A stretch of DNA of 64,000 bases from Bacteroidota bacterium. Its GTDB lineage: Bacteria > Bacteroidota > Bacteroidia > Cytophagales > Cyclobacteriaceae. Where the stretch lies: assembly GCA_024280115.1 (NCBI GenBank), contig JAJRQT010000159.1:1-64000 (forward strand). Reading direction: 5' to 3'. The notes beneath the pieces are model-generated. The model was not told where the DNA came from and ran no database searches. It saw nothing but the letters and a program-made list of their open reading frames with translations. The translations under genes and the position numbers were made by a program. Of the stretch, positions 10,380 through 35,225 are shown one piece after another. The number at the start of each line of letters is the position of its first letter. The first letter of the stretch is position 1.

Positions 10380-10442
10380 ATTAAAAAGTTTTTGAATTGA
10401 ATTTAATCTCAAATGAAAATGCCTGCCCACAAAATCAATATC

Positions 10443-10576
10443 AATAAGTTAAGGAATTTTCTTCGTCATAGCGTCTCGGTCTGTGTCCTCACAGACCGAA
10501 ATATATGGTTTGTGAGGACCTGCCTACCGCAGACAGGCACAAACCATGGCGAACAGGTCATTACTCTTAACTTATT
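10443..10576. repeat. 134-bp palindromic intergenic element A
   Basis: The ends are a perfect 11-bp inverted repeat, AATAAGTTAAG at 10443-10453 and CTTAACTTATT at 10566-10576. Inside are two hairpins: CGGTCTGTG/CACAGACCG (10477-10498, loop TCCT) and ATGGTTTGTG/CACAAACCAT (10505-10547). A sister copy lies at 35081-35225 and shares the order of both hairpins and the string GGCGAACAGGTCATT. It looks like a miniature inverted-repeat element; no protein is encoded. Confidence 0.8.
10519..10537. repeat. 19-nt hairpin mini-insert (copy 1)
   Basis: The sequence is CCTGCCTACCGCAGACAGG. It sits in the loop of the second hairpin of element A. The sister element at 35081-35225 reads straight through GAGGACACAAACC with these 19 bases absent, so this is a clean insertion or deletion. 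A stem CTGC/GCAG can form, followed by ACAGG. Confidence 0.65.
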
Positions 10577-10684
10577 AGGCATACAGGACAGGCAGGCACT
10601 TTTATCCCATGCTCCTTAATTTATATACTTTATCAATCCGGAAAAGTACTATGTTTATTCATGTCATGTCAAATATATCGTGAA

Positions 10685-10795
10685 GGGTATTTATTAAGTT
10701 AAGATTTTTTTTCCTCCCTCTGTATCTCCCCCGAATCAAGTTCGGGACAGGCTCTCCAAAGGGAGAGATCAGCGGTATTAACTTAATAAATGCCC
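10685..10795. repeat. 111-bp palindromic intergenic element B
   Basis: Terminal inverted repeats of 18 bp with one mismatch: GGGTATTTATTAAGTTAA (10685-10702) and TTAACTTAATAAATGCCC (10778-10795). Inside is CTCCCTCT, then CTCTCCAAAGGGAGAG, and a nested hairpin insert at 10730-10751. The ends share AAGTTAA with element A although the interior differs. It lies between the acyltransferase and MFS genes, both on the minus strand, with no gene in 10380-10828. Confidence 0.7.
10730..10751. repeat. 22-nt hairpin mini-insert (copy 2)
   Basis: A 6-bp stem CCCGAA/TTCGGG with loop TCAAG is followed by ACAGG. It resembles the 19-nt insert at 10519 in ending with a hairpin plus ACAGG and in lying within a larger palindrome. 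Flanking sequence would join as TATCTCC and CTCTCCAAAGGG without it. There is no empty copy in this window, so insertion is inference here. Confidence 0.5.
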
Positions 10796-10828
10796 TCGAA
10801 GCCTCAATCTTGATTTGGCACAAGCTAA

Positions 10829-17595: not shown

Positions 17596-17615
17596 TTTTA
17601 CCCAAATGGGTAAAA
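17596..17615. promoter_or_regulatory. TetR operator 1
   Basis: TTTTACCCAAATGGGTAAAA: 9-bp arms around a central AA. Its centre is 29 bp from that of operator 2. Such a palindrome upstream of a tetR gene is the expected autoregulatory site. Confidence 0.75.
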
Positions 17616-17626
17616 TAATTTATTAT

Positions 17627-17642
17627 TTACCCATTTGGGTAA
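17627..17642. promoter_or_regulatory. TetR operator 2
   Basis: TTACCCATTTGGGTAA repeats the ACCCA-NN-TGGGT core of operator 1 with central TT. It ends 10 bases before the -7 box at 17653, so a bound repressor would cover the promoter. Confidence 0.75.
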
Positions 17643-18295: not shown

Positions 18296-18315
18296 CCTGA
18301 CTATCGGCAGACAGG
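18296..18315. repeat. 20-nt hairpin mini-insert (copy 3)
   Basis: CCTGACTATCGGCAGACAGG, in the 105-base gap between tetR and the TolC-like gene. It shares CCTG at one end and GCAGACAGG at the other with the insert at 10519. It is not visibly nested in a larger palindrome. Confidence 0.5.
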
Positions 18316-34999: not shown

Positions 35000-35080
35000 G
35001 TGTTTATAAATTGAGGAAATCTATCATTTTGTCAGAGCCTTTACTAATATATTTTGTGTACTTGCTTGCCTGCGAAGCCG

Positions 35081-35225
35081 ATGTCAACAAGTTAAGGGAT
35101 TTTCCTTGTCATTGCACCTCGGTCTGTGTCTCCGCCTTCGGTGGACAGGCTCACAGACCGAAATATATGGTTTGTGAGGACACAAACCATGGCGAACAGG
35201 TCATTGACTCTTAACTTATTGACAT
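35081..35225. repeat. 145-bp palindromic intergenic element D (sister of A)
   Basis: Terminal inverted repeats of 16 bp with one mismatch: ATGTCAACAAGTTAAG (35081-35096) and CTTAACTTATTGACAT (35210-35225). Interior order matches element A at 10443: GGTCTGTG arm, insert, CACAGACCG, TATATGGTTTGTGAGGAC, ACAAACCATGGCGAACAGG. It fills most of the 285-base gap between the amidohydrolase and DUF362 genes. Confidence 0.8.
35131..35149. repeat. 19-nt hairpin mini-insert (copy 4)
   Basis: TCCGCCTTCGGTGGACAGG is present in the loop of the first hairpin of element D and absent at the same point in element A, which reads GTGTCCTCACAGACC. It is the same length as the insert in A (10519) but sits in a different hairpin. 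A CCGC/GTGG stem with ACAGG tail can form. Confidence 0.65.

Follow-up and report, generated by a model that had tools for sequence, protein, structure and literature searches.

What is a 19-nt hairpin doing in the loop of a larger hairpin, when a sister repeat in the same stretch of DNA is empty at that place and carries a 19-nt insert of its own in a neighboring hairpin? The window (the whole analyzed stretch of 64,000 nt on contig JAJRQT010000159.1 of a Cyclobacteriaceae bacterium) contains both repeats, and the initial annotation had taken their inserts for a mobile or copied unit.

Reciprocal inserts in two sister elements

Element A (about 10440..10580, plus strand) is a palindromic repeat with two inner hairpins and the ends CAATAAGTTAAG and CTTAACTTATT; it has relatives at 35 places in its own genome and is missing from the orthologous spacer of the same-genus genomes G299, G298 and G297, as found by reading that spacer. 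Its hairpin 1 (10478..10497, GGTCTGTGTCCTCACAGACC; all hairpins here are taken as unstranded) is empty, and its hairpin 2 (10507..10545) is occupied, reading GGTTTGTGAGGA[unit]CACAAACC, with the unit CCTGCCTACCGCAGACAGG at 10519..10537 on the plus strand. The corresponding empty site is GTGAGGA|CAC, and for hairpin 2 there were 14 empty-site matches in a 1.4-Mb sample of the genome. Comparison with A identified element D (about 35080..35222, plus strand) as its sister. Here, the 19-nt insert lies in hairpin 1, at 35131..35149 on the minus strand (TCCGCCTTCGGTGGACAGG on the plus and CCTGTCCACCGAAGGCGGA on the minus strand), with hairpin 1 of A as its empty counterpart, and hairpin 2 (35169..35188) is the empty site GGTTTGTGAGGA|CACAAACC. 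The initial annotation was therefore right that A and D are sisters, each occupied where the other is empty, and that both inserts sit in a hairpin loop: each lies within a GGTYTGTG..CACARACC hairpin, and these hairpin pairs fold far better than their shuffles (z about -6).

On the strand compared originally, the D insert agrees with the unit at 12 of 19 positions; read on the minus strand, it matches the consensus unit at 14 of 19 (shuffle P about 3.5e-4). With the hairpin loop oriented as AGGA, the inserts denoted X enter at AG|GA and those denoted Y at AGGA|, in identical orientation, and both recur at fixed positions throughout the A/D family. The proposed covariation of stem positions between A and D did not hold up, as the pair C5/A15 in the stem of the A unit is broken, the D insert pairs in another register, and only one double-sided change was found among 24 distinct units versus 0.93 expected by shuffling. 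Probably, the A and D inserts are related units that arrived in separate insertions and differ in their pairing registers.

The relatives reported at 10730 and 18296 exist as well. Element B (10684..10796, plus strand), a repeat with 19-nt terminal inverted repeats and a further insert host, harbors a 24-nt hairpin at 10730..10753 on the minus strand (CCCGAATCAAGTTCGGGACAGGCT on the plus strand), which is absent from four sisters of B in the alignment. A free-standing 20-nt variant, CCTGACTATCGGCAGACAGG, lies between two ORFs (18296..18315, plus strand); a search for its empty site found none. The general form of the unit is an imperfect hairpin, CCTGCCT-ACCGC-AGGCAGG, with a length of 17 to 22 nt.

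Layered palindromes were observed at 10420-10600 of the window and at two further places of the same genome (C46:7387-7820, L108; C213:55020-55199, L081). From the outside in, the layers are CCTGCC..GGCAGG shells, GTCAATAAGTTAAG ends, CGTC-type repeats and GGTYTGTG hairpins, and identical outer ends surround differing cores. Separately, a perfect 17-bp inverted repeat, TTACCCAAATGGGTAAA, at 17598-17642 of the window, at the start of a TetR-type gene, is an operator candidate.

Empty sites and target preference

For an insertion test, the flanks of each unit were joined and a gapless paralog across the joint was sought in the 1.4-Mb sample of the 7.2-Mb genome. When exactly the unit was excised, 28 of 62 strict units had a gapless paralog that is empty, compared with 0-5 when the excised length was changed by 1-6 nt, 9 of 3000 for random 19-nt deletions and 11 of 496 for deletions shifted by 30-60 nt. 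The host contexts of these empty sites number about ten and are unrelated, although some occupied copies share ancestry and several in the A/D family may descend from one insertion. Besides the A/D hairpins, present both occupied and empty, they comprise a MITE, AGAGTCTGTCCATAA, with the joints GCGTTACG|CTTG and AAAAACG|GAGTTTACG; a REP-like repeat with the joints GAACGAAG|CGATCTC and CACTGCGAG|TGTAGCG; TTGTTGGTCACAA|GACCAACAA, in both orientations; TTTCTTTGGA|CAAGAAAAG; TCCGGA|TTTATTCCGG; and TTGCGAT|GACGACG, plus one further context.

Occupied and empty sites were found in other genomes, too. A betaproteobacterial hairpin repeat, GTTTGTCGGA|CTTGGCCCCGACAAAC (joint TCGGA|CTTGGC or CTTAGC), has dozens of matching copies, one of which is occupied in each of two genomes; plasmid relatives of this host repeat were sought and none was found. 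In the Pedobacter-like genome G080, several copies of the joint CCTCG|CAATGACG are occupied and several are empty. The Galbibacter locus L135 has three tRNA-Leu starts in tandem, which hardly differ over about 350 bp: one has no unit, another a 20-nt unit, and the third that same unit together with a 19-nt one. A high-copy betaproteobacterial hairpin repeat, TAGGAGTTTGTCGGACTTGGCCCCGACAAACTCCTA, was also observed in the genomes G302 and G303 (L195, L132, L391-L410).

A check for target duplication, which had been recommended, was negative: the occupied and empty sites compared differ by exactly 19 nt, and no duplicated flanking dinucleotide (AG, as in the yeast GC clusters) was found beside the unit. 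Conservation is confined to unit positions 1-19, where it is partly set by the search pattern; the informative part is the drop outside, where information is near zero except at +1. This base is C or T in 116 of 138 cases (84%; C 79, T 37), and weaker signals were seen at -1, where T is rare, and at -4 (n=138). None of the 31 own-genome units lies inside an ORF of 100 aa or more, though such ORFs make up 84% of the bases.

The idea that the unit inserts into hairpins was borne out for the copies in the window and for several families, but overall such sites are only enriched. Folding of the empty sites placed 14 of 138 joints in apical loops whose stem has at least 6 bp, where 4.4 (swapped flanks) or 7.1 (shifted joints) would be expected; a simpler second test agreed. 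The apical-loop preference is thus real but modest, two- to threefold and no rule, and about 80-90% of insertions lie outside a strong apical loop. At one locus (L311 in G191), two units are located in attC-like sites, CCTAGACTCGCCGC[unit]TTAAACGCCGGGTCGTTAGG, perhaps of an integron array.

Copy number, spread and known kinds of repeats

Further copies, the absence of which would have spoken against a mobile unit, are present: at up to two mismatches, the genome holds 21 copies of the unit versus 0 for a reversed-pattern control, and 7 copies of the D unit, again versus 0. Throughout the phylum Bacteroidota, 31 of 296 genomes contain the unit at up to one mismatch, with 114 copies versus 3 reversed-control matches. 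Its copy number is patchy at this threshold, with 17 in its own genome, 24 in G080 and none in most genomes. The exact 19-mer occurs in at least 118 stretches of GTDB genomes, a few of which are chance matches in 257 Gb, and among the matches listed the taxa include Bacteroidota, Patescibacteria, Deltaproteobacteria, Acidobacteria, Betaproteobacteria, Omnitrophota, WOR-3 and others. Together with the base-exact empty sites in many unrelated contexts, this occurrence across phyla supports the proposal of a mobile or copied unit. An assembly artefact was rejected, because mutated variants of the unit occur and isolate and single-contig genomes (G191, G294, G226, G029, Galbibacter) contain it. 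Phages were likewise discarded as a vector, with only 6 exact matches in 2.9 million viral contigs. Six forms of the unit sequence were sought in a library of papers, and no paper in that library carries them.

The initial annotation had also called for a comparison with known repeat families and Rfam. At gathering score, the window has no Rfam match and four occupied loci match intact tRNAs only. The SDR elements of Nostoc and its relatives, reportedly described by Elhai et al. in 2008, are said to be hairpin repeats of about 20 nt that are nested in other repeats and inferred to be mobile. Our unit resembles them in its size of about 20 nt, its dispersal, its hairpin form, its occupied and empty sites and its nesting in other repeats. 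It differs in being 19 nt long, in occurring as one near-identical sequence across phyla (Bacteroidota, Patescibacteria, Proteobacteria and others), in its +1 pyrimidine preference and in that no compensatory stem changes were found.

REPs and REPINs are intergenic palindromes of 20-40 nt tagged with GTAG or CGTC (PMC3733652, PMC3116915), and REP dimers inserted in palindromes have been described in H. neapolitanus, T. roseum and A. variabilis (PMC3733652). The unit, too, is a palindrome in intergenic DNA that is inserted in palindromes, but it is smaller, single rather than paired and without RAYT association, and the tag is absent beside it (within 6 nt, n=138: GTAG 2 and CGTC 0 on one side, GTAG 2 and CGTC 1 on the other); Bacteroidota repeats starting with CGTC are among its hosts. 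From MITEs it is set apart by the lack of a target-site duplication; it is itself one inverted repeat. The GC clusters of yeast mitochondria, which insert, merge and shuffle, are likewise tiny palindromes rich in GC, but they are mitochondrial and have a putative 2-nt target duplication, AG (PMC4478555), which the unit lacks. IS1397 and other IS, according to work cited in PMC3116915, insert into REP palindromes and thus share the kind of target, but they are full IS elements with a transposase. Rickettsia palindromic elements insert in frame into coding genes, in contrast to the unit. Of the known kinds, the SDR elements of cyanobacteria and the REPs that are inserted in palindromes come nearest. 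Few mobile-looking DNA units described so far are as small as this 19-base hairpin.

What may insert the unit

The insertions are exact, occupy many independent sites, are restricted to intergenic DNA, recur across phyla and vary patchily in copy number. From these sequence comparisons we infer mobility, and with a probability of about 0.6 we read the unit as a very small non-autonomous mini-hairpin that was cleanly inserted, probably as single-stranded DNA, by a trans-acting enzyme. It would have been added repeatedly to intergenic DNA, with target bases neither lost nor duplicated, and its insertions would be most visible inside other repeats, often at or next to a hairpin tip. Entry may occur as single-stranded DNA exposed in loops or cruciforms, for instance on the lagging strand. 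The near-identical sequence in distant phyla would reflect recognition by the trans enzyme combined with horizontal transfer, and the stem would decay without selection once inserted.

As to the enzyme, a small GIY-YIG nuclease is a tentative candidate: it would cut single-stranded loops, and the hairpin grafted into the cut would shield the site from recutting. Ssn-type GIY-YIG enzymes are reportedly single-strand nucleases. A small GIY-YIG ORF lies 0-54 bp from the unit at 5 of 80 exact-match loci and at L420, a rate far beyond our estimate from gene density of roughly 0.1-0.3% per unit; with one exception (L185, with no tRNA by ARAGORN), the adjacent units are in copies of tRNA fragments. 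Hairpins, some of other sequence, are also found in the tRNA arms of four GIY-YIG/tRNA arrays (L426, L427, L449, L477), which were chosen by their GIY-YIG genes and not by the unit. GIY-YIG genes are more numerous in unit-bearing genomes (P 3e-5; 0.005 within class; kinship ignored). However, all 61 genomes tested have such genes, most units are distant from them, and relaxed selection in tRNA fragments could account for the proximity.

Fragments of tRNA genes beside intact tRNAs were seen at 13 loci (L135, L155, L182, L194, L204, L420, L426, L427, L449, L472, L473, L475, L477), mostly with small GIY-YIG genes (none by profile at L204). Some of these arrays are exactly tandem, with 450-bp steps in G236 and 315-bp steps in G294, and the copies carry hairpins in the D, anticodon or T arms. 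At L472 and L477, 18-nt T-loop inserts resemble two 9-nt mini-hairpins, e.g., TCCGAAGGA+TCCAGTGGA and TGCAAAGCA+TCCTTCGGA.

Somewhat less likely still, the unit could be a REP moved by a Y1 transposase (RAYT or IS200-IS605), single-stranded, with a preferred base and without duplication. The clean insertion, hairpin form, loop preference and +1 pyrimidine would fit HUH single-strand chemistry, and 27 of 31 unit-bearing genomes possess Y1 genes; yet so do 21 of 30 unit-free genomes (Fisher P 0.13), and four unit-bearing genomes lack a Y1 match. The suggested association with Y1/REP-associated transposases was not found in position either, as no unit lies within 1.5 kb of the eight Y1 genes of the own genome. 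At L174, the unit occurs near a RAYT-type gene (L174:1325-2085) that has a different REP of its own, with GGAAAGC..GCTTTCC hairpins on both sides of the gene; the 19-nt unit is inserted in the loop of one of these hairpins. At L067, another hairpin, TGTCAGGTNGGAACACCTGACA, occurs in several copies near a Y1 gene.

Reverse transcription of an RNA copy of the hairpin into the target, as proposed for the cyanobacterial SDRs, is improbable. Insertion into loops of tRNA-derived sequences and the hairpin form would suit it, but unit-bearing genomes are not enriched in RVT_1 matches relative to unit-free ones, and many of the unit-bearing genomes have none at all. Slightly more improbable are convergent functional structures, terminators or mRNA stabilizers that arose by replication errors at palindromes; the strictly intergenic location and GC-rich stems are compatible with this, but the recurrence of the same 19 bases in phyla far apart, their placement at exact insertion points of many repeats and the absence of stem covariation speak against it. 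Least probable of all is that the inserts were inherited as components of larger mobile repeats, each family having one old insertion that spread only as the larger element moved: the fixed positions of X and Y mean that few events are needed within the A/D family, but shared ancestry fails in the face of exact empty sites in about ten unrelated hosts of the same genome, and hosts elsewhere are tRNA fragments, the betaproteobacterial repeat and Pedobacter REPs.

Returning to a mini-hairpin inserted in trans, we consider it possible, though doubtful, that it represents a new minimal class of mobile DNA, in which a single-stranded 19-nt hairpin is put into hairpin loops of repeats and tRNA arms across phyla by an enzyme that cuts loops, and in which palindromes grow by nesting; this enzyme might be a small GIY-YIG nuclease, which would drive the tandem tRNA-fragment cassettes as well. 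If the reading of a mobile mini-hairpin is right, dispersing DNA units would be known down to a size of about 19 bases, the building of layered palindromic repeats would be explained, and the exact occupied and empty sites could be used in the search for the enzyme. The near-identical 19-mer in several phyla raises the question of what maintains such a short sequence and how it is passed on.
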